DNA of 64,000 nt, taken from the NCBI GenBank assembly GCA_903813345.2, contig CAIIXF020000002.1:5434001-5498000 (forward strand). The letters run 5' to 3'. This document shows, piece after piece, positions 2,122 through 64,000 of the stretch. The notes beneath the pieces are model-generated. The model did no database searches. It was given only the letters and a program-made list of their open reading frames with translations, and was not told the origin of the DNA. A program made the translations under genes and the position numbers. The stretch is from Owenia fusiformis. Its lineage: Eukaryota; Annelida; Polychaeta; Sabellida; Oweniidae. Each line of letters begins with the position of its first letter. Position 1 is the stretch's first letter.

Positions 2122-5100
2122 ATCAACATTTATTACGACACTTTTGCATGACTATGCCGAAGATGTTCCTCCAAACTTTGACCAAGGTACGTATAATATA
2201 CACTCCCTTCCATAAGTTTGGCAACCAATGACTATGCCGAAGATGTTCCTCCAAACTTTGACCAAGGTACGTATAATATACACTCCCTTCCATAAGTTTG
2301 GCAACCAATGACTATGCCGAAGATGTTCCTCCAAACTTTGACCAAGGTACGTATAATATACACTCCCTTCCATAAGTTTGGCAACCAAGTATGTTTATTC
2401 TGCGATTAAAAATCAACTTTGTCATACATTTTCGAACTATTTCAATTAAAGAACAAAATTAAGATTCCATCATTTGCCAAACTTATAGAGGGAAGTGTAT
2501 TTACATTAAGAACCTTTAGATAGAGCTACTCTAAGTGTACAAAGCCATGGGAATGGACTGAATTGGTGCACGAGTTTGGCTCTGGAATTTAAATTCATTT
2601 TGATTGCCCACATCTTCTTTGAAAGGTTTCTAAAAATAAAAGGTTGCTAAATTGTATTCGAACTCACCTACCTTTGAGTGGGTTATCGCAATATCCGTAT
2701 TCTGAGTGCACCACTATAAGTACGACATTGTTCTAATATTATAAACAATTGTATTTAACATTTTTTCACTACTTTGGCGTGGTTTACAGTAACATACAGG
2801 GTGATTCAGGAGTAAGATCAAATATATTGCCATTGTTCTCTAAACATCGACGAGTTACTACCAGTCGAGATTACTTATTCAATTATTTGATTGAACCGAA
2901 TCGTTGTTACTGTGGTAACCTAATATAGCATCACTAACGTGTTTATATTTGTGTTAGTGTAATGAAATATTTCGAGGTTACTTTATATGGATCATCCTGT
3001 AGGTTGCCCCTGAAGCACAAAGCACTCGACGCACTTGAACAGTTCATGTTCCGGTGTATGGTCCAAGTGTATGGGCTTAAGGTATCACCCACGCACATGT
3101 AGTGGCATCCTGATCAGTCAAGGTATTTCTAGTATGGCCAAAAGGAATATATTTGTTGAACGGGGTATGCGTAATGGTACACTTAAAAATCCTTTTGGAG
3201 AACCAAGAGAACTAGGTTATATTGGCGAGACTATGATAAGTACATGTAATTAGGTACAACTTGCAAACCAATAGACCAATCTTGCATATCATGTCACACA
3301 ATGGGGTACCCTCCCATCAAAAAATTTGGTAATGAGAAGTCCCATTCCAATCCGATTTATTGTATTTTTGGAACAGAATTAAGCTCAAACATAAACGGGC
3401 TCCAAGCCTTATTAACGCTATGGAAACTTTTTGTTACCAGAGCCTTAAACACCCTCTGAAAACGTTTGCTAAATTTATGAGGGGATGTGTGCGTTTATAA
3501 ATCCCTCGATCCTTAATATAGATACACTTAACTGTTCTTTGCTCACTATATCCCAAATATAACGTTTTTGACTAGAAGCTTCAGAAATTTTACACATAAC
3601 AAGCTGATGCAAAAATGTGTTTCATATATTTTTCAATTAACACCACAGAATGAGTTCTATTGGGGTTTCTTGGTTTCGTTTACAACCTGTACGTTTAATT
3701 TACTATTAGGCGCCTGTGTTTCATCTCAAACTGTTTAACAACACACCTTTTGGAAAATAACTGGGCATCGATGCGTTTTTCCTTTGCTCTAAAATGCCAA
3801 TAAGATACGACAATATAAAAAAATCTTAAAAAGAACAGGTATTCGACCAAAAACCGAGATGATTTAATTTGCAGGTAGTACTTAACAAATATATAATTTA
3901 GAGCGTTACAAAAAGTGTTGTTTATTCATAGGAATATACATTGTAATAAAGTGTTAAATGCGACAGCTTTTATGCAAAACACAATATTTATTGGGATATT
4001 TACATAAATACTAAATAATCTCTCCGTAAATATCTTCGTAAAGGAAGTGTATACTTCTAAAAACGCAATTGTAAACTTAGACAATAGACGAAGAGCTGTT
4101 ACTTTTTCGTGTATGTTACAGAATGCTAAAACAACCCAAATATGAATAGTTTGTACAATTGCGACATTTGAAAGCTGAGATTATCTGCTATACCATGACC
4201 TCGGTGGTTGTCAATTTAATGATAGCTGTACCTTTTTCATGTTTTTGAAAAAAACAAAATATTATTGGCACAAGATTTGAAAGTTCAGATTCTCTGATCT
4301 ATCATGACGTCGATGATTGTCTTTCATTACCTTCTTCTAAGGCCATCAAGAATTGGCTAGAGACTTGAGTAAGTATTTCCAATGATGGTTTTACGGATTC
4401 AACAATGGGCGTTTGACATTCGACACACGTGACACAGGAAGTTGATGTTTCGTGTTAATTAATAAAATGACAATCTCAGTCTGAAATAGATGCTCATGTC
4501 CAACGAAGCCTTTTCTGCAATATTTTATATCACGTAGTATGACATTGTTTAACACATTAACTTCCATTTTACACGAGTCAGCCTCCTTGAAGCTTCCGAA
4601 GAGTAAGTTTTGTAAGCACTTAAAACCTTACTGGACTGAGACGCTGAAATCAATGATTAAACAAAAGAAAATCACATGGAAAAGATGGATACAAAATGGA
4701 AGACCACGCCAAGCTGGAAATGTCCATTGGGAATCTTATAAGCATGCAAAACGGTGTTTTAGGAAGGAATTTCGGAGATGCGAAAGGGAATACGAGATAC
4801 GGTGCCAAAAGGAAATTGATGAAATGGAAGATATATCTATTAACCAATTTTGGCACTTAGTTAAGATGCGAAAGTCAAAGATAGCCAATAATCTAGCTGT
4901 TCGATCGGAAAATGGTGTTATTTTAACTAATGTTACTGATGTTGTTAATGAATGGAGACAATACTTTAAGAATTTAGTCTCCTCAAATGGAAGCGACCAA
5001 TGTACTTATGATGATTTGTTTTATGCTGAGGTAAATGAAATGGTGTTAAAAATGGATGCTGATAGCCGCACCAATGATGATGGGTCTTTTAATGATCCAA

Positions 5101-8100
5101 TCACTGTGGATGAAATGGAACTGATATTGCGTAAACTACCAAACAACAAAGCGCCAGGTTGGGACATGATTTGTTCAGAGCACTTAGATAAAGGTGGCAG
5201 GTCGGTTTTAAGCGTACTGTTAAGGCTATTTAACATAGTGATTGATGCAGAGTTAATTCCCGCGAGTTTTAAACTTGGCGTACTGTTACCAATCTTTAAA
5301 GGTGGTAATAAAGATCAGCTTAACAAAGACCATCATCGTGGAATCACCTTAATGACAACATATATGAAGATGTTAGATCGTTTAATGCTGATGAGAAGTG
5401 AAAACTGCCCTCTGCTTGAGAAAAGGTCAACAATGCAAGGAGTAGGACTTGAGAAATGCTCAAGCCTCCATACGTCATTGCTTACACGAGAGACTATTGC
5501 TCACGGACTCGAACAGGGTAATGACGTCATAGTGACGTCATTAGACATCAGGAAGGCATTCGACAGCGTTTGGCACAATGGCCTCATGTATAAGCTATAC
5601 CAACAAGGCATCAACGGAAAACTGTGGCGACTTATCAAAATGGCATATGATGGATACGAATGTGCTGTTAAAGTGTCTCATGAAAAATTCAGATCCGTTC
5701 ACTGTAGGAAAGGGGGTCCACCAGGGAGGAATCTCATCTATGAATTACTACGCAAGATATACGAACGATTTACTTAATCAGATTGAGAATAGTAAGATAG
5801 GATGTACCGTCAGTTGTGTCCAAACAACTTGCCCCACATACGCTGATGATACTATACTTATAGCATATCATGCAACTTCAATGCAACGTATCCTGGATAT
5901 TATATATGATTAAAGTGTTAAGTGGCGTTTCCAATTCCACCCTGACAAATGTAAGTCGTTAATATTCAGTAACCATAGAAACGCGCCCAAACCATTTATC
6001 ACACTTGGAGGAAAACAGATTGAGGTTCTAGACTCGCTTCAACACGTTGGTTTACCGTTATGTCACAAGCCGAGCCCAGAATTCATTGATGGTGCGATTT
6101 CAAAAGGCAGACGGACAATGGCAGCATATATTGGAGTAACATCATCGTGTAACAACCCTACCAATCCACTCACTGCTTCTAGACTATATTGGTCCATATG
6201 TGTTCCGTCAATGACCTATGGGTTTGAACTTTTATCGTTGAGTGAGTCTGACTTAACAATCTTGAAGCAGGGCACAGATCTATCTCGAAGCGACTGCAAG
6301 GATTGCCTGATAATACACCGACACCAGCCTGCACATCCTCCATTGGATGGCAGTCCTTACCTGCTAAAGTGATAATTAGCAAGTTGATGCTCCTGTGGCA
6401 ACTATTAACATTACCTATGTCTAATGTCTACAAGAAAATAACTGTAATAAGACTTATATTTGCACAATACTTTACTCTCCATAGCCTTTCACCGTTAGGC
6501 GATTGTCTAAAAGTAGCAAAAGCTTATAGATTAGATGAGGCAATATATGGAATCCTAAATGGGGAAAGTGTGAGTAAATCCAGCTGGAAACGACAAGTAA
6601 AATTTGCGATAGAAGAATATGAAACCAACAAATGGAGACTGAACTGCTTAGCTTATGAAAACCTCACATTATTTAAAACAGTGCATCATTTCATTAAACC
6701 ACTTATTTGGTGGCAATTGGCAAAAAAGGATCCAGGGACTCTCCGGAACTGCAGATTAATGGTAATTTTGTTAACTGGAGGTGGCGCTCTTATGACAAAT
6801 GTTAAAAGGTGGTCGGGTGGTCTGGAATCAGATCTATGCATGGTATGCAAATTGGCTCCAGAAACGTTACAGCATTTAATTCTTGATTGTTCAGGACATG
6901 TTAATGAACGCATAGAAATATTAAATATCTGTAAAAAGTTATTTTCGAATCAACCCCTCCCCCCTAGTAGTGTATTGTTGCCAATTATATTTGGCGCGGA
7001 TTCGATACTTTGTGATGTAGAATATGATATTATATGTAAATCTGTATATAAAATGTATCTAAATAGGCCTAAAAACAGGTATTTTACATAGTAACTATAA
7101 GGCTTAAGCGGTAATCACCAATTGGTGATATTATAATTGAATGTGTTTTCCCCTTCTTAACCTGTATAGCTTAGTTTTATTTTCTATGATTTTATTATAA
7201 ATTATATGTATACACATCATTATTGGTGGATAAAATAAACATAAATAAAATGACAACTGACAATCTCAGTCTGGTGGTTAAACTAAATATTTGTCTTCTA
7301 CATAATCTCCAGGCCCGTAGCCGGGGGGGGGGGGGGGGGGGTTCGATGGGTTCGAGCACCCCCCCCCCCTGGCCAAAATTTCTTTCAAAATCATGCAGTT
7401 GTTCACCATTCTGAGCACGTTTTAAGTGATTTTGGCCATTTTTGGACCAAAATTGTCAAAAGTGAATCCCCCTGGAATTTTCCAAAAAGTGACCCCCTCG
7501 GCAAATCCTGGCTACGGGCCTGATCTCATTACGGAAAGCGATTAGGTACCCCCACATATATCAATACGATCTTAATACATGTAGATTTACAGTTACCGCG
7601 ATCTGATAAATTGCAAACGTCAAGCTATTAAGAAGAAAAAGTATATGCACAGGGATACACTGAAGTAGTTTCTGTTGTCCAATCAAGCCTTTGTTTGCTC
7701 GAACATGATTCTTGCTTTTAATAAATTGCAATTGTACTCGAGGAAGCAGTTTCCAATTAAAGTACACTCCCCTCCATAAGTTTGACAATTTGACAGGGGG
7801 AGATCTCGCAAAGTTCAGCCTTCGTATTCGATCACGTGGTACCCATGTGCTAGATCCATATACGGCATACATGACCATATAGGAATCCAACTGACCGTTG
7901 TCCGCCCTTTTGATAATCATGTGATAGATCCATATAAGGCTTGTATGACCATATAGGATGGCTAGGGGAAATCCCGAATACGAAAGAATATGATAGTATT
8001 ATGAGAGCTACTCACTTCTTCTGACAATTTGAAGTTTACATTGGATAGCATTTCAAAGCCTGACAATGTTTGAATTTTTTTCGGTAATTACAACAAAATT

Positions 8101-14100: not shown

Positions 14101-17054
14101 TTTAGAAACAACACCTTCATGGTATGATTCAGCAAACAATGCATCGAGTCTTGGGCTTTAATCCTTTACTCAAGGGAGTCATATTGCTTGCATACCATGA
14201 AACATTAGGATTTGATCTCACTTAGTTCTCGAAGCTTATTTGATTACGTAATGCACAAGGTACTTTGGAAACAGATAATACCCTACCACATCCGGTACCA
14301 ACATCCCATACCAGCCAAGGTTCAAACAATTTTCGTCTCATTCTCATGCTGTTCATACACTATAAATCTTTTGTGTGTAATTACTACGTCCCAGACAAGC
14401 CATCAATCGGGGTTTCGTCTTAAATGAATTCCATCAAAACATGCGATGATTACATGGTCACAATGCCCTAAATCAGCAATTTATCAGAATCCATGTCTTC
14501 CTGAATTAAGCCATACGCTTGCACTGAAATTTATAGACACTCCGAAGGGCAACTTTTCGTGCTAGGATTAAAGTTATTGACCAGAGTGCTTTAGTTAACA
14601 ATCACCTTATTCATGTTTATCTTTTGATATATCCCATCTTGTAAGTTCAAACCTAAAGTATATTTACAACCTGGACACTAATTTGTAATAATTAAAGCTA
14701 ATCCTCCAAAGGAATGCGAAGTCAGTGAAAGTTGTGCTTTGATGAAAGTGAACTACATTGCAGAATATTTTACGGCCTGTGGTACACTCCCTCCATAAGT
14801 TTGGCAACTGGAAGTCTTGATTGGATACTATCAAAGCCTCTCAATGATTGAATCTTATTTGCTTTTGCCAAAATTATGGGGGAGTGTATTTCCTTTAGCG
14901 ATACATTTACATGTTCTATTGAGGATGTCCCCTGGACAAAGTTACAAATGATGACAATTACCAACCCTTAATCTTTAATGTAAATTACATACCAAAACTA
15001 AGTTTTTCTGTGAGTTTTAATTAAGAAAAGGTTAAATACTCCAAAATATGATTTGGGGTGAAACTTTTTCCATGGGATCGAATAAAAATGTGCCACGCCC
15101 ACTTTTGTCATATATTGACACTTTAGAAGGCTCTTGCTTAGAAAACCAGGGTTTTTAAATTATTTGAGAAAAAAATTAATAATATTTTCAAAACCTCTAG
15201 GGAACATTCTTGATATCGAATAGATATTTACAGTTAGTTTTACATTGATATTCTAGGCTGTCCCTCACGCTGTCTTGTCCTATGGTGCTCAACAAATTCC
15301 CAATGGACTCACAGATATGTTACGCTCAAATCGAAAGTTGTAAGTATTGCTTTTTGAATAAATCTAATACTATGCTGAAAAATAACTTAATACAGACGTT
15401 TTGGGTCATAATAACTTGTTTTATGTTCTAAAGATGTCTCTTCATCTGACACGACACTATTTAGAGTTGGTTTAAAAACAAACAAATTTTTACTTTGCCT
15501 GTACACTTAAAAATAAGTCATTTTTGTGTTCCAAAGACGCCTACACCACTGATAAGATACTGCTGCGTTGGGCCGAGAGGGACGCTGTAGAAATAGTACC
15601 CAACCTAGAACTTCCACAATTCCAACTAACTCGTCTGTCTTACGGGGAGTGCTATAGGAACTACTCAACTGGTACTGACGTGGCAGTTTATTTTCTGTCA
15701 TTTGTATTGGAAATTACAACGTTGCACCGGGGATCTTTTCTTGAAACATTCTAAACTAGGAAATTTAGAAGGTTCATTGCTTGAACATGGATACCGTAGC
15801 ACCAAATTTAAAGAAGATTTCGACTTTAAAAATTGCTTGTAAACGACAACCCCGTTGTGATATTTTAGATGCATGTCAGGTACATGCCAATCTCAGATCA
15901 AATTCAGCATCCTTTTAGCTACCATCCTCCTAAATTTGGCAACCGATCCCCCCCCCAGTTGGATTGCGTATTTACGTCTGAATGCTAACTTTGTTAAAAA
16001 TTACCCGGGAAAAATTACAGCTTTGAAAATCGTCAAATATGAACAAGCTTTGTATTTTAACTCTTGCCTCTTGACTTTTGGTGGGGATGTAATTGTAATG
16101 GTTACATTTAATTTTCAGGTAGCTTTCCCTGTCTGCAGATCAAACTTCTTCCTGGTTAGAGATGTGGGCTTCTACTTGATCCAAGTGTATGTTCCAAGCA
16201 TGCTCATCGTCATCCTCTCCTGGGTCTCGTTCTGGATCAACGTCGATGCAATTCCCGCGAGAATCTCGCTTGGCGTTCTCACGGTTCTCACCATGACAAC
16301 GCACGGTTCCGGTCTTCGAAGCACACTCCCGAAAGTATCATATGTTAAGGCGATAGATGTCTGGATGTCCACTTGTTTGTTGTTTGTATTTGCTGCATTG
16401 TTGGAATTTGCGGTCGTCAATGTACTTTCAAGAAAAGAAATTAGACGACTTGTTACCCTAAAAAGACAAAAAATTCCGAATTCTAAATTGGGGTTTAGGA
16501 GTAAAGAGGTATGTTTCAAAACTTAATTGTACTGTTGAGTATGTGTGTGAATAATGCATTGCCGTTTTATTAAGTACATATCATGCCATTGAGACATTTA
16601 TTTCGGGTTAATTGTTATTTCGGGTAAATTGGGACATTTTTCATGTGTTCTTGCATAACGCTCTCAATGCCAAATGCGTCCTTATAAATGTAGATCACTG
16701 TGCCAATCTTAAAAAGCTTGCCACGGATACAAAAATAAAAGAAGTATATAAACGCTTTATCTAAATATTTAATTTACATACCGCTTATTTCATAATTCTT
16801 TATTGTTGTCTTTTCAGTGCTATCGGGAATCAACAGGGAATGGACATTCAAGTGTTTTAGAGGAGCGAGTCTTGTGGGACGAGGAAGGCAGACAGAGAGG
16901 TCGCGATATAGATAAACTTTCAAGAAAAATATTTCCTACTTTATTCATAATATTCACTGGATTTTACTGGGTTATTTACCAGTTATCTCAAGAGGCTCAC
17001 GACATTCCAAAATACGTCGAAGTAAACAACACAGTACTCAACAGGAATACGTAA
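2122..17054 (+). CDS. Anion-selective Cys-loop receptor subunit (glycine receptor / GluCl-like), 5' end missing
   Basis: Subunit of a pentameric ligand-gated chloride channel of the plasma membrane. Exons seen: 2122-2186, 9693-9760 (68 bp), 12473-12699, 15257-15339 (83 bp), 15537-15671, 16119-16508, 16818-17054 (stop TAA); all have AG/GT borders and matching phases. The 68- and 83-bp exons have the lengths found in vertebrate glycine receptor genes. Visible parts: extracellular strands ([22 protein letters not shown]), the Cys-loop C-x13-C ([16 protein letters not shown]), a second C-x10-C loop ([12 protein letters not shown]) typical of GlyR/GluCl, M1 ([15 protein letters not shown]), M2 preceded by IPAR as in anion channels, M3, and M4 in the last exon ([16 protein letters not shown]). 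A one-base frameshift lies near 16142-16145. Signal peptide exons were not found. Ligand (glycine, glutamate or other) cannot be decided from sequence. Confidence 0.88.
2149..2388 (+). repeat. Three-copy 80-bp tandem repeat of an exon end plus its splice donor
   Basis: Copies start at 2149, 2229 and 2309 and are essentially identical. Each holds the last 38 bp of the receptor exon, the donor GTACGT, and the left terminal repeat of a family A MITE. The donor is therefore present three times in a row. Only the first copy follows an acceptor (AG at 2120-2121). Confidence 0.95.
2359..2499. mobile_element. MITE family A, copy 2
   Basis: The left terminal repeat at 2359-2387 (TACACTCCCTTCCATAAGTT) is matched by an inverted right end at 2474-2499 finishing in GAGGGAAGTGTA. 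The left end was copied by the 80-bp triplication, so extra solo left ends lie at about 2199 and 2279. Confidence 0.65.
2500..4467. other. Intron sequence without recognised features
   Basis: AT-rich intron DNA between the first visible receptor exon and the LINE. Short ORFs such as 3035-3253 have no recognisable domain. I see nothing supportable. Confidence 0.5.
4468..7273 (+). mobile_element. 5'-truncated non-LTR retrotransposon (LINE) with target-site duplication
   Basis: The element body (about 4484-7257) lies between two exact copies of TGACAATCTCAGTCTG at 4468-4483 and 7258-7273, a 16-bp target duplication as left by target-primed reverse transcription. The 3' tail is A-rich (AATAAAATGACAAC). 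Only the reverse transcriptase and C-terminal parts remain; no apurinic endonuclease domain is seen, consistent with 5' truncation on insertion. The element sits in a receptor intron in the sense direction. Clade not assigned. Confidence 0.88.
4539..7091 (+). pseudogene. LINE reverse transcriptase ORF, frameshifted
   Basis: Frame 1 (4539 to about 5725) carries the N-terminal part and RT palm motifs ([37 protein letters not shown]). Near 5720 the reading moves to another frame, which holds GVHQGGISS and the catalytic YADD box. A TAA at 5911-5913 interrupts this frame, after which thumb-like sequence ([17 protein letters not shown]) continues. Near 6300 a second frameshift leads to 6303-7091, which holds a C-terminal Cys/His motif (CMVC...HLILDC). 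Two frameshifts and one stop make this copy unable to code for an active enzyme. Confidence 0.88.
7310..7522. mobile_element. Short inverted-repeat element (GGCCCGTAGCC family), complete copy
   Basis: The 13-bp terminal repeats are perfect: CAGGCCCGTAGCC at 7310-7322 and GGCTACGGGCCTG at 7510-7522. They are flanked by ATCTC on both sides (7305-7309 and 7523-7527), a likely 5-bp target duplication. The interior is non-coding with long G and C runs. A related right half lies at 54898-55022. Confidence 0.75.
7763..8201. mobile_element. MITE family A, copy 3 (longest)
   Basis: The left end TACACTCCCCTCCATAAGTT at 7763 and inverted right end at 8175-8201 (GTTGCCAAAC...GGGGAGTGTA) bound 439 bp. 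Interior sequence near 8040-8080 (TTGGATAGCATTTCAAAGCC) recurs in copy 6, showing that the copies share more than their ends. ORFs inside are not recognisable. Confidence 0.75.
8202..9692. other. Intron sequence without recognised features
   Basis: AT-rich intron DNA of the receptor gene. No ORF, RNA gene or clear repeat was found. Confidence 0.5.
9774..9800. repeat. Solo left end of MITE family A
   Basis: TACACCCCCCATGAAAAG followed by TTTGGCAAC starts 13 bp after the donor of the 68-bp receptor exon. No right end was found nearby, so this is a truncated or diverged copy. Confidence 0.5.
9801..11215. other. Intron sequence without recognised features
   Basis: Intron DNA with a short G run near 10025-10040. 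No supportable gene or repeat. Confidence 0.45.
11216..11470. repeat. Pair of perfect 22-bp inverted repeats
   Basis: The arm at 11216-11237 (core CCAAGGAGGATTGGCTCCCA) has its exact reverse complement at 11449-11470, with a 211-bp non-coding interior. This may be a MITE or foldback element; no target duplication is evident. Confidence 0.7.
11957..12074. mobile_element. Foldback element family B, copy 1
   Basis: The outer arms GGTCACATTTTGCTCCAATT and its inverted match (AATTGGAGCAAATGTGACC) fold over almost the whole 118 bp, with a second palindromic core around GGCCGATTGAG/CTCAATCGGCC. It lies in a receptor intron. A second copy lies at 17251-17363. Confidence 0.75.
12651..13185 (+). repeat. 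Seven-copy tandem repeat of a receptor exon end plus splice donor
   Basis: Copies begin at 12651, 12729, 12808, 12886, 12965, 13043 and 13122, so the period alternates 78 and 79 bp. Two unit types alternate: odd copies have GAGTACTCC and even copies GAGAACTCC, giving a 157-bp dimer. Each unit holds the last ~49 bp of exon 12473-12699 and the start of the intron. Copies 1-6 keep the donor CAG|GTAATG; copy 7 has CAGCTAGAG and has lost it. Only copy 1 is joined to the exon body. Confidence 0.95.
13374..13601. mobile_element. MITE family A, copy 5
   Basis: The left end TACACTCCCCTTAAAAGTTT at 13374 is matched by a decayed right end ACATTTGGAGGAGAGTGT at 13583. It is more diverged than copies 3 and 6. 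Confidence 0.5.
13602..14782. other. Intron sequence without recognised features
   Basis: AT-rich receptor intron. The short ORF at 14212-14427 shows no domain. Nothing supportable. Confidence 0.45.
14783..14888. mobile_element. MITE family A, copy 6 (shortest)
   Basis: The left end TACACTCCCTCCATAAGTTT at 14783 and inverted right end finishing GGGGGAGTGTA at 14888 bound 106 bp. The interior (GGATACTATCAAAGCC) matches part of copy 3, so this is an internal-deletion derivative. Confidence 0.7.
16142..16159 (+). other. One-base frameshift in the receptor exon before M1
   Basis: Exon 16119-16508 enters in phase 1 and reads GSFPCLQIK, as expected for the second Cys loop, but that frame stops at TAG 16157-16159. 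The next conserved segment ([15 protein letters not shown], then M1) lies in the +1 frame from 16146. The run AAA at 16142-16144 has one base too many for a continuous frame. No other acceptor or donor nearby gives the right phase. It is either a real lesion or an assembly indel. Confidence 0.8.
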
Positions 17055-27408: not shown

Positions 27409-28378
27409 TTATTATTCTAAGCACGTTTTCTCAATAACCGTAAGGTTTTCAGTAAAGTCAGTTATTTGGTCAATTTAGGTCCAGAATCTAGTTCCTCGGA
27501 AATTGGGTCAAATTTTTATCTAGGTCAAAGGTCAAGAACTAGGTCAAATCCAGTACTTTGTCACTTTTTTCGATTTTCTCGGTCGTCCTTCAATATTTTC
27601 GATCCGGGTTTTTTTCATTGTGTTCCTTATAAAAAAGTAGGAAACCTAGGGTCGATTTAGTTTTTTGATATCTCAAACCGATTTCGAGATATCAGTGTCC
27701 GAAAACGAGGTCCAAAAAAAAGTTCTCCGAATCAAATGTCCAGGATATTATTCTTATAGGGAATTATCTCAGGATTCCGAATCTGAAAACAAAATTTGGA
27801 TCTGACTTCCGGTTCGGAAGTTATGGCGTTTTGAAAACCCCAAATTCGCTAAATTTGGTGCCCATGTTAAGTCAATGGGAAAAAATATTTTTTTGAAGTG
27901 AAAAATACGGAATATAGACTGAGTTCAGCTTCATATAATCAAAGCCTTTAAAAGAAGGGGACCTCAAAAGCCATCTAGCTTCACAATTTTGACACCGAAA
28001 TGCCTAGGTCAAAATCTAGGTCAAATTCATAGGTTTTTCTTATTTTTTCGATTCTGACACTACACTTTAATTATATTCTTCGAAATTGTGTATACATGTA
28101 GCCAAGAATATGCTAATAGTGTTAGCCTCTTGCCGTCAGAAAGTATTTTGACCCACTTTTGAGATATGGTGTCCGAAAAGTAGGTCAAAATAAAAAGTTC
28201 TCCAAATTTAATATATGAGTTATGAATTAAGGGTAGAATTCTGTCAGGAATCCGAATCTGCAAACTAAATTTCGATCCGACTTCCGGTTCGGAAGTTATG
28301 GCGTGTCCGAAAAGTAGGTCAAAATAAAAAAGCTCCAAATTTAACGTATGAGTTATGAATTAGGGGTAGAATTTTGTC

Positions 28379-28427
28379 CACACCATCCCCAGAATGGCTT
28401 TAATGCTACACTTAGTTAGAAGCCTCA
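28379..28427 (+). repeat. Left terminal inverted repeat, long spacer
   Basis: Block 1 CACACCATCCCCAGA (28379-28393), 13-bp spacer, block 2 TACACTTAGTT (28407-28417), one base, block 3 GAAGCCTCA (28419-28427). Confidence 0.88.
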
Positions 28428-28926
28428 GCGTAACTTGATCATAATGGGCAACTGCAGTTGAACCATGTTGCTTAGCAATTAGAACAACAAGATGGCTGAC
28501 AGTCTTCTTGTAAAAAATGAGGGTGTGTTATAAAATCTTGAAGTCCTCTCATGTAAAGTTGGTATAAATTATCAGAAATCAGCTGAATGTGCGGTTGATA
28601 AGTGCATGTTGCTGGCTGCTTTTATCTATCATTCTAGATGGGGTGATATCTGTACTTATGTAAGAACTAGTAGGGATGAGAAATTAATTGCTTTTCCACA
28701 GATAACTACCAACCCATTAACTTTTAACCCTCAATTAAACCAGATTTTGCCATATAGACCCAAATGAAAGTCACATATTATTTTTCTTCAGAGTGTCCTC
28801 TTTAAGCCAATATGTTTTTCACTTGGGAGGCATGGTTACTTTCTGAGATATTTAATTTTCAATCTTCGTAGTATTTCAAGTTAGGTTGTACAGTTTAACA
28901 CATTAGAACTTATCAATCACCTGAAA

Positions 28927-31818
28927 ATGGATCATTTGGAAAGTCATAAAAAAGCTCTCAATGCATTATGTAGATTGTGTGCCTCAAAAACAACATTTAG
29001 TAAAAGGAAAGTAAAGAAGAGGCCTTGTATTTTGATACAATTGGAGTTATTAAAATATTCAGAAATCAATTTGGATAATGATAATCCGGATTTACATCCA
29101 AGTTTAGTTTGCAGCAAATGCTACCAGTTTCTAAAGGACACCAATAAACCAAACAGAACAATCACTGAAAGTACAATAAAAGAGAGGATTAATGTATTTG
29201 AAAAGGTAAACAAACATTGGACTGAGAATGAGAGTGAAATCGAGGCATGTTGGCCATGTCAAAAACACAAACAGAACAATGCATTTGGAAAATGTACTCA
29301 ATCAATTGATATGGATATAAGTATCGAAAGTGATTTCAGTAATTGCCTTACTAGTACACCAGTGAAAAATAGAAAAAGTTTTGATATAAGTACAACTGAT
29401 GCAGACACCTGTATGACTCCAAATCGGGAAAATAATACCGCATTTAAAGAAATATTGGATAAACCAAACAATGCACCTCTAAATTCGCTAGAGGAAAAAC
29501 TCCTTACCAAACTCATGCGTAGGAAAATAGCAACATCAGACTCAAAACAAGGTGAAGTTTACTTAAAAACTGGAGGAAAGGTAAATAATATTTAATATTT
29601 TTATGCCCTTGATTAAGACAAAGGGTGATTATTTTATACATATTTGCTTCAAACATTAGCTTTCTTGAGACTCTAAATTCATAATAACACATACAGAATT
29701 ACTATTCAAGTAAGCTTAGATCATTAAAATGATTTTGAATGATAAATAATCACCATGGCCACTTAAGAGGTTTCAATGGCCGTATCTAATTGTTATTGCC
29801 CTTAACTACTTAGTATTATCTCTTTATTACAGCCACTTGTTTTCATCAGAATTGAAAAGGCTCAAATTCAAAGCAATACAGCATCATCTCCTTTAAAGAG
29901 AAAACGTGCAAAAATTGTGGAAAAATGTAGACAAACATTAAGTGGGGGTAAAGATGATTCATTTTTAAATCAAATGTCTAAGGAATTCCGTTTAAAGGCC
30001 CGACAGAAGCAGAATAAAGACAAACTATTAAATCTCTTAAAGATAAAAGCGGGGATTGTTACTAAAAAACAAGCTCTTGCAATGAAATCTGCTGCCCGCT
30101 TATCTCTTGGTCAGATGAAAGTTATTGCAAGGCAATTGAAACAAAGTAATGTTAACATTGAAAGTCAAAATAAACAACGCGAATACAGAAAAAAACTCCT
30201 AGAAAAGATAAAACTTAAAGGAAAGCTTAGACTCCTTGGGAAGCGTGACCTAATATCCCCTAAAGGAAAACAAGGAAAGGTATATGAAAAAATGCCTATT
30301 GGCTTCATTGACAACTTACCAATTCACATAAAAAACCACCTAGACAAAATGGAAAAATATAATCTACTTAACTTTGATAGTCCAGTTATTCCACACAATG
30401 AAATATGGGTGAAGGTCGGCGGAGATGCTGGTGGTGGTAGTTTCAAAATGTGCTTTCAGATTTTGAATACACCCAATCCAAACAAAACCAAGAATTGCCT
30501 TGTGTTTGCTGCTTTTTGTGCGAAGGATACCAGAGAAAACTTAGAAGTACTTCTTCGGAGATTTACCCCCCAAATTGATGAATTGAAAAATGCAACTTGG
30601 AATGGTAAAGAGATAAAATTATGTATGTGTGGGGACTATGAATATCTGTGCAAGTGTATGGGACTGTCTGGCGCTGCAAGCATTCATCCATGCCTATATT
30701 GCCATATCCACACTGACCTTATAAGCATAACACAAAGGAATAACAGGATCAAATCAAAGCCAAGGACTTTAGGATCACTTGAAAAAGACTATGACAAATT
30801 TTGTAAAGAAGGCAAGTGTAATTTGAAAACAGCAAAGCTGCACAATAATGTTATAAACCCTCCCCTACTGAACATTGACATTGACCACATTTGTCCCCCA
30901 TGGTTGCACATATTGTTAGGTATTGTTAAGAAACATCATGACCTCCTACTGATATTTTGTAACAAAATTGATATTGCTATAGCAGATAGCATAGCAAAGG
31001 AAGAAAAGTTGAGGTCTGAAAAAAAGGATACGCCATATGGAAAATATATAAGAGAGTTGGAAAAAATCGAAAAATTAAAGGATCAATTAAGAAACACAAA
31101 GAGTATTGCTAAAAAGGAAGCAATTGAAGAGGAAATCAAAGAAAAATCTTCCAAAAATAAACTCCACCTTGAAGCAGGAACAGTTGCCAATGTTTTAGAT
31201 GAGGTGCTAAAAAGGCACAATATTCACAGAGCCCCATACCATGGAAAATCAATGGTCGGAAATCATTGTGTAAAATACCTGCAGACAGATGTATATACAG
31301 ATTTGTGTGACCAGGTCGTTTTATCCACCAGAGAAATAGCAAAAGGCCTTGCTATTGAGAACAAAATCATCAAAAAAGCAAAAAAGATTGCAAAGGTGTT
31401 CAAGGAAATTAACAACTTATTCTCCAAGGTACACAGATCAGTGGGGCATAGCGAGAAAATTGAAGAATCTGAAATTGAAACAATACAAAATGATATAGAA
31501 AATTACCTTCAAAAGTTCAGAGAGTCATTTCCAAAAACCAAATTAACTGTCAAACAACATATTATGGAAGATCATGTCACAGAATGGATGAGGAAATACA
31601 AATGTGGACTTGGATTACAATCTGAACATGCCATTGAAAGTATCCATAGTGTTTTTAATGACCTGAATCGAAAGATGTTTGGCATAAGGAATCCCTTGAA
31701 TAGACTATTGGCGACAATGACAGAGCACATCATCTCATGTGAGCCTGAAATCATGACAGGAAATCCAATTGTTAAGAAACGGATCAAGAAAACAGAGGAT
31801 CCTGTAAAGATGCAGTAA
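28927..31818 (+). CDS. DDE transposase, RAG1-like N-terminus, CMC/Chapaev-like core
   Basis: Exons 28927-29580 and 29833-31818; intron 29581-29832 has GT..AG borders and phase 0, giving an 879-residue protein with no stop or frameshift. N-terminus: C15-C18, then HPSLVCSKC (H57, C62, C65), W98, then C108-C111, the CxxC / HPxxxCxxC / CxxC layout of the RAG1 N-terminal zinc region and of the Aplysia N-RAG-TP family. A basic stretch (KRKRAK, about 238-243) may be a nuclear signal. Core: first Asp in VKVGGDAGGGSFK (D416), second in LCMCGDYEYL (D486), CLYC (C505, C508), a H-x6-H pair (H570, H577), and the Glu in LGLQSEHAIESIHS (E816 or E820). CxxC...H..H between the second Asp and Glu is shared by CMC and RAG1/Transib enzymes. 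A charged coiled-coil-like insert lies near 603-661. It likely cuts and joins the element ends. Confidence 0.87.
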
Positions 31819-32329
31819 TTGTGAGTAGAAACCCCTTACTATAAAATTGGAACGAGTTTGCATGAGTTCCTTTCAACAATGCATACATCAAAACACACCA
31901 TGTTTTCCAAGATAAATAAGCCCACACTACACCTTACTTTTCAGGTACATTGTTGCAGTCTTTTTTGAAATGGAGATTTTGGATTCAGGTCTATAAGGTA
32001 TAGAGACCCTGTGCTGGAAAGAAAGGATATTTGATGGATAGTGTTGTGTTTAACAGTGTAAAATACACATTATAAATTGTGCCTCCCAATAAGTTTTTAT
32101 ACCAATTAGAAGATAAGATTCTATATTTGACAAAACTTTTCATAAAAATTAATTTCATATGGCCAATAGCTAAAAAAACAAGCTCAAACTTTGCATTTTA
32201 GCATAACATTAATCTGAGATAATGACTTCATAACTGCACTGATGTATTTCTGCTAGGCGCTTAATTAGTGCTAGTGCCATATGTAAGATAAACAGCTGGT
32301 GTCAGATTTCCAGCCATGAGATTTCTAAG

Positions 32330-32369
32330 TGAAGCTTCAGAACTAAGTGTACTCTCTGGGGCTGGTGTG
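32330..32369 (-). repeat. Right terminal inverted repeat, short spacer
   Basis: Read on minus: block 1 CACACCAGCCCCAGA (32369-32355), 3-bp spacer GAG, block 2 TACACTTAGTT (32351-32341), two bases, block 3 GAAGCTTCA. The spacer is 10 bp shorter than at the left end. Confidence 0.88.
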
Positions 32370-32830
32370 TGTCAGGAATCCGAATCTTTCAATCAAATTT
32401 CGATCCGACTTCCGCTTCGGAAGTTATGGCGTTTTGAAATTTCGGAAAATCGATCTGATGGTATCCTGATAGAAAGTCAAGAGTAGAGAAGAAAATGTTG
32501 AAAAATTCATCCATCCTTCCTATCTGATCTTATCCTATCCTTCCTTTCTATCCTTTCTTCGTATCTTTTCTATCCTTTCTTCGTATCTTTTCCTTCCTAT
32601 CCTTCCTATCCTATCCTTTCTTCCTATTCTATTCTATCCTATCCTTCTTTCTTATTCTATCCTATCGTTCGTTCCTATTCTATCCTATCCCACCTTCCTA
32701 TTTTATTTATCCATCTCTTTGTAGATGACTCAGCTTATTCTGGATGACTCGGCTTATTCTGGATGACTCGGCTAAAAAAAGTCTAGATCTGGAGTCTGAA
32801 ATTGAACTTCGTTCAATTTCCAAAATCTAG

Positions 32831-59600: not shown

Positions 59601-61447
59601 GATGCAAACTTAATATGAACTAAGAATTATAGAATGATACGATAGTCGAGTGGTTAGTGTTAAAATCTAATTTAAACAAGTTGAAAATCAAGTAGAAATA
59701 ACTAAGTAAACTATGACATTAAGAGTCCTGTTGTTTTAGTGCTAAATTAATTCAGTTAGGATGCTCCCATAATGACAGGGGAGGCCAATTGTGCTTCTAC
59801 TTGAACAATAATTGCTTTTAGAACGGCAATATGTTCGATTGTTGAGAGGGGCATGTTTAATTTACATTTTATATTGCAAGTGATTTAGACTGAAACATCC
59901 ATCGGTTGTATACATCCGTAATATATGTACTTTAATATTTTAATTCAGAAGAATTGAATATTCTCTAAATGCAAACAAATGTTCCGTTCATCGCCCCTCT
60001 TGTGCAAGTGGAAAGACGACCACATGGCTTTGTGGCATAATGAAGATTGTGAAGGTTTACATTTTGAAACCGTCTAGAATAGTCGATACACTAGGGGTGC
60101 ATTTCATCGACATTTTGAATCATTTTCGGCAAACGAAATTGAAATCTTATATCTTGGATTAATAATTAATTTACGATAATTGTAATCATATTTTAATAAC
60201 CCTGTCATTACGCTCCGTGCTGCTGCGGGTGAGAACTTAAAACCATACGACTACCCCGGAGCGACCAACCGGTGAATAGAATTGCACAACGTCGAATGAC
60301 CTTAAAAGCTGATCACGAAGGAATTGAATTAGTGAAAAATACAGTAAAACGCTATTTGAATTGAATATTACAAATTGAGAACATTTTTAGAATAATTTTG
60401 AAAGTGAGACAACTCAATGAACATTGAAGCAGGATGAGATGTTTTGCACAGGCTTGAGAGCCTCTAATCAAAACTACACGGCAGTGCGGTTTAAACATAA
60501 ACCACTATTTACTCAAAGTTTGCCCAATTTTTTCTATTTACCTCAATTTAAAACACAGAGAGGGGTCCTCGAAATCCGACCGCTCAATTTGAAGGAATAA
60601 TTGTGTCTCCTTGTTCGCTATCAAACGTCTAGTCTTACGTGGAAAGAGTCCAGATTTGTAAAGCTCCCGGGGGGAAAATCAGTTACTTCACGATATATTG
60701 AATACGACCAATTTGGTGAATATAATTACGCTGATTTAAAAAGTCACATTGGATTAAAAGTAGCTTTATTGGTGCTTGTCAGAAGTTCGGATTTAACTCA
60801 CGTTGGCATCACAAACAGCTCACATTTAACCCAAAGAATAAATGAAACTCAAATTTATTTACGTTTTTCCCTCTTGGTTCATTACATTCAAACAGGGCTC
60901 GAATAGATATAGATACTAATACGACTTTATTAACATCATTCTAGTGATGGACAATGAGACACTATCGTATTTCTGTGTCCGAAGGCAATAGAAACTGTAT
61001 ATGTCTGAGAGACATCAAAGAGAAATTTAGTTATAATGAGTTTCTCTATTTAATTTAGCTATTTTTTGAAATACAGAATAGAAAATTTTAAGGGTTTTAA
61101 TGTTTTGGGCAAATAAAGTTTCACCAATGGTAAATTTTAAATTCATGGATTTCATAATCTCGTTCGTATTAATAAAACTGGTTATATTTCAAAATTCCAA
61201 TATTTCATTTTTAATGAAAACAAAGTTTAATCGAGTTTTCTATTCAGAAAATACTTATATTGTATCTATTGACGGTATTTATTGAAGTATATGTTGAAAT
61301 ATAATTTTTCTCTGCCACCGAACTGTTCCCGAGTAGAGCTACTTCACTGGAGCACTTATATCCTGATTGGTGCCATCAACACATCTTGTCTTAGGATCTT
61401 ACTTCATGAGAACAAAAATGGGAGAGTTCCGATGTATCACGACTGGA
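56636..61447. other. Long AT-rich stretch without a supported gene
   Basis: ORFs at 56839-57123, 58837-59076, 58983-59258, 60601-60906 and 61100-61285 show no domain or splice context that I recognise. A half-copy of foldback family B may lie at 59286-59330 (CAGTCACATTTGCTTGACGG). An imperfect TAGTGCAAT-type short repeat occurs near 57580-57690. Confidence 0.4.
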
Positions 61448-62250
61448 AATGTTTATATCACGAAGATGGCCGAAGATGTTTATATCAATTGCAAGAAGAT
61501 GGCCGAATATGTTTATATCACGAAGATGGCTGAAGATGTTTATATCACGAAGATGGCCGAAGATGCCTATATCACGAAGATGGCCGAAGATGTCTATATC
61601 ACGAAGATGGCTGAAGATGTTTATATCACGAAGATGGCCGAATATGTTTATATCACGAAGATGGCTGAAGATGTTTATATCAATTGCAAGAAGATGGCCG
61701 AATATGTTTATATCACGAAGATGGCTGAAGATGTTTATATCACGAAGATGGCCGAAGATGTTTATATCAATTGCAAGAAGATGGCCGAATATGTTTATAT
61801 CACGAAGATGGCTGAAGATGTTTATATCACGAAGATGGTTGAAGATGTTTATATCACGAAGATGGCCGAAGATGCTTACATGTATATCACGAAGATGACC
61901 GAAGATGTTTATATCAATTGCAAGAAGATGGCCGAATATGTTTATATCACGAAGATGGCCGAAGATGTTTATATCAATTGCAAGAAGATGGCCGAATATG
62001 TTTATATCACGAAGATGGCCGAAGATGTTTATATCACGAAGATGGCCGAAGATGTTTATATCACGAAGATGGCCGAAGATGCCTATATCACGAAGATGGC
62101 CGAATATGCTTATATCACGAAGATGGCCGAAGATGTTTATATCACGAAGATGGCCGAAGATGCTTATATCACGAAGATGGCCGAAGATGCTTATATCACG
62201 AAGATGGCCGAAGATGTTTATATCACGAAGATGGCCGAAGATACTTCAAT
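61448..62250 (+). repeat. 27-bp minisatellite (GAAGATGGCCGAAGATG)
   Basis: About 30 tandem units of 27 bp, some with a 6-bp TTGCAA-containing insertion (33-bp variant). Because unit lengths are multiples of three, all three plus frames stay open for most of it; the longest ORF is 61367-62311 with peptide ITKMAEDVY repeated. After the array, TCTTCGGCCATCTTCGG at 62285-62301 is an inverted piece of the unit. Coding is not supported. Confidence 0.88.
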
Positions 62251-62311
62251 GGACCAATCAAATTCCTTGGAGGTTTCAAGTTCGATCTTCGGCCATCTTC
62301 GGTTGAGATAA

Positions 62312-64000
62312 AAAAAATTGTTACCCTCTTTTCTTAGAATGTTTCTTCATGAGAAAAAATAACAATTTGAGTTCAAGTTGAGAAATTTAATTATACATAT
62401 TTAATCATCATTAAGAGTGAAAGGAGTACAGCCGGGGAGTACAGTTTAATACATTTACTAAAATCGGCTGAGCTCTAATCTCAAATAGCCAGAGGAAATA
62501 AAGAAATTACGATTTTCGACATTTTGTAAATTGTTCGCTTATTTTATGTGCACATTAGTATGCAATTTAGAATTTAAAGCGATTGCAATTTTCTCATTCT
62601 ACAGACGTCTTCAAGTGGGAATCACTCAGAATGACACAGGATTTTTCACCCCCAGTTAATACCCTTCTTGAAATACTTATGATTTAGAGACTGTGATGAG
62701 AAGTAGAGCTCTTAACACAATTGCCGTTATCCGAAAACTGTTAATTTATGTCACTTCTTCATTCTGTTGAGAACTTGAATAGTCAAGTTCCTATTTCACG
62801 CTAACCTCTCTCTTTTACAATTTTTAGAAGTTGATACTGCATCTTTTAGAAAGATAACTCGACTCTGACAGTAGCCTACACGCAGACTCTAGTTACAAGC
62901 ATTGTTTTCTAGTTATGAAGATGAAGCTCACTTTTAAGAAGCGAAGTCAAACGAATGTAAAGTGTATTCTGACACTCGGAATATGAAGAACTAATAAACA
63001 TTCATTAAAATATTTCTACATTACACTTATCACATTTTAAATAAAAGCTTCATCTCAACTATTACTTGTTTCTGAGCTCAAAGTAAATATCTTTCATTTC
63101 CTTTTTAAATACTTTATTAGGAGGCTCTTCTTCACCTAATTCGAAAATATCATTCGTACCTGTTCTCCGGGTAATTTTCAAAAATGATATCTAATGATAT
63201 CTTATGGCCTAGATAGCTGAATATCATTTTTTAAACTTGATATACAGGAGATGATTTCAAAAATTAGCAGGATTCTATTAAAACACCGCTATACGTATCT
63301 ATCAAAATACTCCGTCTAGGATATCCCCGTTCAGGAGTCGAACTACAAGCCCTTGTGACACAAGTGTGCTGTATAGATACCTGTTTAAATGTATAAAACA
63401 ACTTTTATTATTTGATTTTACTCTTACAAATAATTGATTTTCAAAGATAATTGCTTATCTTAGTTTACATCATTATTTTGCAGTGATGTTATTTCAGGCC
63501 TCGATTTTGCCTTTTGAAATATGTTTATGTCCCGGTTTATGTCTGTATTTTGATAATGTTATGCATGTCAGAATACATGATGGAGAACTATATTGCGCCT
63601 GAAAGTAGAGGTATTAGAACATATTGTTACGGAACATTGCAAGAAAATCTCACTCCAATAGGAAACCGATTGAAAGTAAGTTAATGTACATAGAAAGCTT
63701 CAATTGCGTATGCGTATAAAGTTCTGAGAACTTATTACAGAAGATTGCAAGTGAATGTGATACGTTCGGAGCAATAAAACTCAAAAAGTTAAGTGACCAC
63801 TTAGAGCTTAGTAAAATAGAACTTATCGTTATATAATAAAATAACATATCCGATTCTGTCTAGCCTTGTATTGTTACAATGCAAAGATAAGAGGCATATT
63901 AAACTTATATTTTCAAACTTGATTAACTAAGCAGGACTCATAAGGGGCCCTTAAGCTTCTGGGTCTGTCTTTATAATTAGTTTATACTGTCAGAAGTTCT
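62312..64000. other. Right edge, no gene seen
   Basis: AT-rich DNA; no ORF, RNA gene or repeat family recognised. Confidence 0.4.

Follow-up and report, generated by a model that had tools for sequence, protein, structure and literature searches.

A predicted Chapaev-superfamily transposon with a RAG1-type front domain in Owenia fusiformis and its possible link to the ZAD family

The 64,000-nucleotide stretch of the Owenia fusiformis genome analysed here (contig CAIIXF020000002.1, positions 5,434,001 to 5,498,000 of the forward strand; hereafter the window) carries a DNA transposon of 3,991 bp with CAC...GTG ends at window positions 28379-32369. An initial annotation had described an apparently intact transposon at 28375-32373, in which an 879-residue protein encoded by two exons joins a zinc region of the type found at the N-terminus of RAG1, the enzyme that rearranges antibody genes, to a DDE core. 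Our analysis recovered both termini and the exact target duplication at these coordinates, and the features of the locus are listed below.

28375-28378, no strand: left target site duplication TGTC; a paralogous empty site at ~28162-28300 holds one TGTC
28379-28394, forward strand: left terminal inverted repeat beginning CACACCATCCCCAGA; 14/16 bases match the right end, and the first 15 bases are identical on L055, a deletion derivative on contig C8
28927-29580, forward strand: exon 1, 218 codons; predicted zinc domain of the Chapa / RAG1 type (residues ~3-115), followed by a linker that was modelled with low confidence
29581-29832, forward strand: phase-0 GT..AG intron of 252 bp, with position and phase common to 13 of 17 copies, the window copy included
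29833-31818, forward strand: exon 2, 661 codons and stop; predicted DUF1280 / RAG1-like RNase H DDE core bearing the C(2)C, LH and H(4)H motifs
32354-32369, reverse strand: right terminal inverted repeat ending TCTGGGGCTGGTGTG, read from sequence
32370-32373, no strand: right target site duplication TGTC, read from sequence

The left end of the element reads CACACCATCCCCAGA and the right end, read inward, CACACCAGCCCCAGA; its first bases are CACACCA, its last are TGGTGTG, and the terminal inverted repeats agree at 14 of the 16 outermost bases. An exact 4-bp target site duplication (TSD), TGTC, lies at both borders. The sequence flanking the element is a local repeat, and the flanks joined without the element align over about 140 bp, with a few mismatches and some small gaps, to window 28162-28300, approximately 0.1 kb upstream. 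This interval is a paralogous empty site for the element in which TGTC occurs once, and the duplication therefore came with the insertion.

A search of the host genome (498 Mb in 525 contigs) for further copies, proposed as a check in the initial annotation, returned many relatives. At E<=0.001 the core protein matched at least 71 stretches and the N-terminal exon at least 49, both lower bounds on stretches, of which a single copy may contribute several. Eighteen loci were fetched by position, giving 19 copies with the window element that were examined for ends; the search demanded CAC/GTG within 15 bp of the alignment-defined bounds together with a TSD no shorter than 2 bp, and ranked candidates by terminal match. 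Ends were resolved in 13 of the 19 copies, all 13 having the CAC/GTG termini that the search imposed. The TSD was exactly 4 bp long in 12 of these 13, and all 13 TSD sequences differed from one another; in L050 it reads 5 bp within a run of G, and its 99.1% identical twin L051 has 4 bp. L050 and L051 (C2:5073300-5079600 and C10:35779500-35785800) are a distant Chapaev-like pair whose ends, starting CACAGTACTG, are close to the recombination signal sequence heptamer CACAGTG, and in which the zinc domain is followed by a tandem repeat that stays in frame.

Splicing of the two exons gave a frame of 879 residues with its sole stop at the frame end, which bears out the open frame first reported, and the claim of a consistent intron also held. 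Counting the window, 17 copies were run through the splice script, L046 and L049 not among them, and 13 of the 17 shared the position and phase of this intron, with the junction ..KTGGK/PLVF.. or a close variant. The script leans towards this position, because it picked among phase-0 GT..AG pairs by resemblance to the window junction. L048 has no intron at that place and is a single frame of 904 residues, and the junctions returned for L047, L050 and L051 were not credible. The list of open reading frames (ORFs) contained none of at least 60 amino acids in the 551 bp between the transposase stop and the right end, and the element therefore has no RAG2-like partner.

The core encoded by exon 2 contains the motifs D416, D486, C505xxC508, L576H577, H794x4H799 and E820. 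D486, both cysteines and the LH pair were identical in 13 of 13 aligned core rows, as were D416, H794, H799 and E820 in all 12 rows that reach those columns. The DDE triad and the CxxC of the core as first described were upheld; the histidine spacing was not, as HxxxxxxH had been given and the actual motif is H-x4-H. The published histidine motif is H(3-4)H or H(4)H in the available text of PMC12730594 and PMC4079192. Pfam DUF1280 matched the window core at E=4.9e-17 (62.7 bits, the cut-off being 25) and was matched in 12 of the 13 core sequences of the lineage. At the level of predicted structure, the AlphaFold model of exon 2 (mean predicted local distance difference test, pLDDT, 83.4; predicted template modelling score, pTM, 0.77) gave 39 Foldseek matches at E<=0.001, every one of them RAG1, BbRAGL or HzTransib. 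Alignment by VIA placed the modelled core nearest to mouse RAG1 (6oep_A; Z 27.1, 462 residues, root mean square deviation 4.1, 15% identity), followed by HzTransib (6pqx_A; Z 23.8, 409 residues, deviation 3.7, 14% identity) and BbRAGL (6b40_A; Z 23.4, 466 residues, deviation 5.9, 13% identity), and the next transposase, the P element, scored far lower (Z 10.8). The core fold is accordingly modelled as RAG1/Transib-like, and the earlier assignment of the core to this group, as opposed to an unrelated superfamily, agrees with the model.

The RAG1-type CxxC / HPxxxCxxC / CxxC layout that had been reported for the N-terminus was found in exon 1 as C15xxC18, H57P58xxxC62xxC65 and C108xxC111. Nine residues, including C15, C18, P58, C62, C65 and C111, were invariant across 14 aligned rows, and H57 was replaced by Y in two of them. 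A profile of eight rows (the window sequence and seven relatives), whose members were all found through the window protein and none through RAG1, matched the RAG1 N-terminal domain 21wb with a whole-sequence E=9.5e-5, with an unrelated chain as runner-up (0.074); taken singly, neither of the stretches that make up this match, two in number, is significant (8.2 and 0.092). The 14-row profile matched the same domain at E=7.8e-11. This second match is partly circular, because rows L032 and L033 had been recruited by the RAG1 Pfam model; L047 matches that model as well, having also come from the core search. Full-length RAG1 chains were listed with the 14-row profile and not with the 8-row profile. 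PF12560 (RAG1 importin binding) matched 7 of the 14 members at E<=10, and among seven members scanned singly its cut-off was passed by L047 and by L032 and L033, the latter two having been found by PF12560. In the genome PF12560 scored above its cut-off at four places, the best being exon 1 of L047. Exon 1 of L044, searched alone against the PDB, gave the RAG1 N-terminal domain as its top match at E=0.081.

These features were compared with published systems. According to the accessible part of PMC3985635, DUF1280 corresponds to Chapaev transposases, and the available text of PMC4079192 gives as Chapaev hallmarks a TSD of 3-4 bp, 5'-CAC...GTG-3' ends, DDE, C(2)C, LH and H(4)H. The window element shows all that were compared, namely the TSD length, the CAC/GTG ends, the DDE residues with C(2)C, LH and H(4)H, and the DUF1280 match. 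Kapitonov and Koonin (2015) described a Chapa (RAG1 N-terminal) domain joined to the DDE core in Chapaev transposases (PMC4411706), and a Chapa zinc domain ahead of the core is likewise predicted here, with the RAG1-like N-terminal match found for the family and not for the window copy alone. From sequence and model taken together, the window element is very probably a complete, coding-intact cut-and-paste transposon of the Chapaev superfamily (CMC/CMCT group), with a two-exon transposase that combines a Chapa N-terminus and a RAG1/Transib-fold DDE core. Two published Chapaev subgroups carry a RING finger, whereas no RING finger family was among the Pfam matches of the window protein at E<=10. 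The element shares the superfamily hallmarks with Chapaev3 (Merrow, Conan and Garfield), in which Merrow and Garfield have two exons according to the available part of PMC4079192. The same text gives Chapaev3 a 3-bp TWA duplication, and the 4-bp TGTC of the window element, with the varied 4-bp duplications of its relatives, speaks against membership of that group.

The initial annotation had named N-RAG-TP of Aplysia as the known precedent for the N-terminal part. A view of the pairing as unusual, with N-RAG-TP as its main precedent, is not supported: the joined Chapa domain and DDE core were already published for Chapaev in 2015 and the architecture is therefore known. N-RAG-TP (Panchin and Moroz 2008), compared here by description only, resembles the window element in having a RAG1 N-terminal-like domain within a mobile element; in the available text of PMC8355894 it is described as wholly N-terminal-like, whereas the window element has domain and core in one gene. 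The kinship with RAG1 is thus anticipated in print, and the window element is a good further example of Chapaev. Overall, the original observation is confirmed and its interpretation partly supported; neither of the two refuting outcomes named with it, an N-terminus unlike that of RAG1 or a core from an unrelated superfamily, was borne out.

A closer relationship with the RAG transposon, as a Transib or ProtoRAG-like (RAGL) element, was also weighed. The CAC ends, the RAG1-type N-terminus of the family and a modelled core fold nearest to RAG1 and HzTransib are all compatible with it, vertebrate RAG1 sharing the N-terminal zinc layout as well as the core fold that it has in common with BbRAGL (ProtoRAG) and HzTransib. 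However, Transib and RAGL elements have a 5-bp TSD (PMC4411706, PMC7204232), against the 4 bp found in 12 of 13 resolved copies, and RAGL carries a convergent RAG2-like gene (PMC7204232), a partner that RAG1 also has and the window element, with no ORF of 60 amino acids or longer past the stop, lacks. The core also matched DUF1280, and the RAG1 core model PF12940 was absent from the Pfam matches of the cores. We consider this origin extremely improbable.

Several results weigh against the classification as a Chapaev element with RAG1-related domains. The assignment to Chapaev draws on Pfam, published descriptions and the superfamily hallmarks, and the tree of 13 cores, in which the window core pairs with L034 (support 99/98, 58% identity), holds cores from this genome only. 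No ends were assigned in 6 of the 19 copies: L034, L044, L047 and L048 lacked a near-identical partner, and in L045 and L046 the left bound lay within the element. Sequence-level searches of the PDB with exon 2 and with the core profile gave no credible RAG1 or Transib match. PF12940 matched nothing in the genome; its absence is not established by this result, because the model was also silent in every control genome. Lastly, window exon 1 by itself matched no RAG1 Pfam model or PDB chain at E<=10, so that the proposed match to RAG1 N-termini stands for the family profile and fails for the window sequence taken singly. The link to RAG1 is nevertheless supported at both ends of the protein, by the family in the case of the N-terminal domain and by the predicted model in the case of the core.

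Six groups of near-identical copies were found in the genome, with 98.8-99.7% identity between loci. L035, L036, L037 and L049 are 99.4-99.6% identical over ~3.86 kb, and the pairs are L038/L039 (99.7%), L040/L041 (98.8%), L042/L043 (98.9%), L050/L051 (99.1%) and L045/L046 (99.2 and 99.6% in two pieces, with ~1.1 kb between them present only in L046). Alignment halts at or near the element ends in five groups, and the left edge of L045/L046 lies beyond the fetched stretch. Recent movement of the wider lineage follows from these identities. For the window copy the search of the genome gave no near-identical twin, and three relatives are the nearest found. One is a 5'-truncated, frame-broken copy on contig C9, identical at 94.8-96.5% in pieces; in a comparison of 584 codons, those with a single change numbered 14 synonymous and 25 replacement. 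Another, on C11, is a 5' fragment that matches at 92% along 194 bases and adjoins an exon-1 match with stops. The third is L055 on C8 (82-87%), a shorter, internally deleted copy that keeps both window-family ends (82% along 514 bases and 87% along 344) and has a TSD, read by eye, of AGGT. Additionally, short matches of 75-85% to the left and right ends of the window element cluster within 25 kb at C1:13901200-13925632 of the same assembly (G000), which may reflect deletion derivatives that were amplified locally.

The earlier suggestion of recent activity thus holds for the relatives and not for the window copy, although recent movement of the latter is plausible. A structurally intact Chapaev copy that no longer moves would be compatible with our classification, and the broken, fragmentary or deleted state of the nearest kin can be interpreted in this way. 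Set against this are the frame of 879 codons and the splice sites, the motifs and the TSD, all of them intact, as well as the near-identity of the related groups between loci; we regard immobility as a genuine possibility, with chances somewhat below even. The intact frame and the absence of a near-identical second copy of the subfamily may also suggest a host gene domesticated from a Chapaev transposase and no longer part of a mobile element. This is very unlikely, as the ends and exact TSD are preserved, a paralogous empty form of the site lies ~0.1 kb away, and many relatives share the same structure, some of them near-identical at different places.

In the likeliest mechanism for the Chapaev element proposed here, a transposase multimer would pair the two CAC..GTG ends, and the D416/D486/E820 site would cut these ends and join them across a 4-bp stagger, leaving the 4-bp duplications. 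Going by the conserved motifs, which also underlie the D/D/E assignment, C505/C508 and H794/H799 may hold a zinc that braces the active site. A hairpin step as in RAG1 and Transib is presumed, and the N-terminal domain may act in pairing or in regulation. At the level of sequence, the element borders show the 4-bp outcome and where the terminal cuts fall.

The N-terminal domains of this lineage also resembled ZAD, the domain of insect C2H2 zinc-finger proteins represented by Pfam zf-AD. A genome search with zf-AD gave three matches at E<=0.001, all above the curated cut-off of 28 bits: exon 1 of L044 (33.7 bits), exon 1 of L045 (30.6 bits) and L054. L044 and L045 belong to the lineage of the window element, and L054 is also matched by window exon 1; the window copy itself stayed below the cut-off, at 15.6 and 16.9 bits (16.9 for exon 1). 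At E<=10 zf-AD matched 13 of the 14 members; L034 and L047, scanned singly, gave no zf-AD match at E<=1. The mouse RAG1 domain matched the same part of the zf-AD model weakly (0.0045). The AlphaFold model of exon 1 had a mean pLDDT of 71.9 and a pTM of 0.51, with pLDDT of ~90 through most of residues 1-100, and the top three VIA rows for it were ZADs (Z 4.7, 4.0 and 3.8; next row 3.0), all under the safe level of the tool. L033 and L054 carry RAG1/ZAD-type zinc domains in frames of 106 and 84 codons, by eye with no core in the other listed frames, and may represent solo domains similar to N-RAG-TP, single exons or copies that have been broken.

Other results argue against a relationship with ZAD. 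Foldseek returned no match at E<=0.001 for the N-terminal model, and other treble clefs were weakly matched too, FYVE for example in 6 of 14 members (best 0.022). In the 8-row profile search Fin (0.074) and FYVE (0.17) ranked above the ZAD chain (0.76), and L044 exon 1 gave no ZAD chain in the PDB at E<=10. RAG1 was not listed by Foldseek or VIA for the N-terminal model, and entry 21wb may postdate that library. The two relatives above the zf-AD cut-off nevertheless suggest a common origin of Chapa, the RAG1 N-terminus and ZAD. We tentatively propose, at close to even chances but with doubt slightly prevailing, that the RAG1 N-terminal domain, the Chapa domain and the ZAD of insect C2H2 proteins are one domain family for which this transposon lineage supplies intermediates. 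The link is possibly new: no paper connecting ZAD to RAG1 or Chapaev was found in a literature search that was not exhaustive. In the available parts of PMC4999995 and PMC9810180, ZAD and RAG1/Chapaev are handled separately or not covered, and the terms sought for such a link are absent from the accessible text of PMC10027918. ZAD proteins are described as host regulators in the available portions of PMC9810180 and PMC7655104.

Elsewhere in the window, broken frames at 4485-7091 resemble, by eye, the reverse transcriptase of non-LTR (long terminal repeat) retrotransposons. A frame at 15861-16526 resembles, also by eye, the transmembrane part of Cys-loop ligand-gated channels, and a host exon may lie here. 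A tandem repeat with a unit of about ten codons (ITKMAEDVY) at 61367-62337 is open in several frames on both strands.

In summary, a coding-intact element with a RAG1-type front domain and a predicted RAG1-fold core in a single gene, accompanied in the same genome by near-identical groups of relatives, is good material for studying the original role of the RAG1 N-terminus in transposition, and its lineage offers intermediate sequences that may connect this N-terminus with ZAD. It is this possible unification with ZAD that merits follow-up. If true, the RAG1 N-terminus would be a ZAD-type treble clef, perhaps one that forms dimers, and the large insect family of ZAD zinc-finger proteins may derive from the front end of a transposase.

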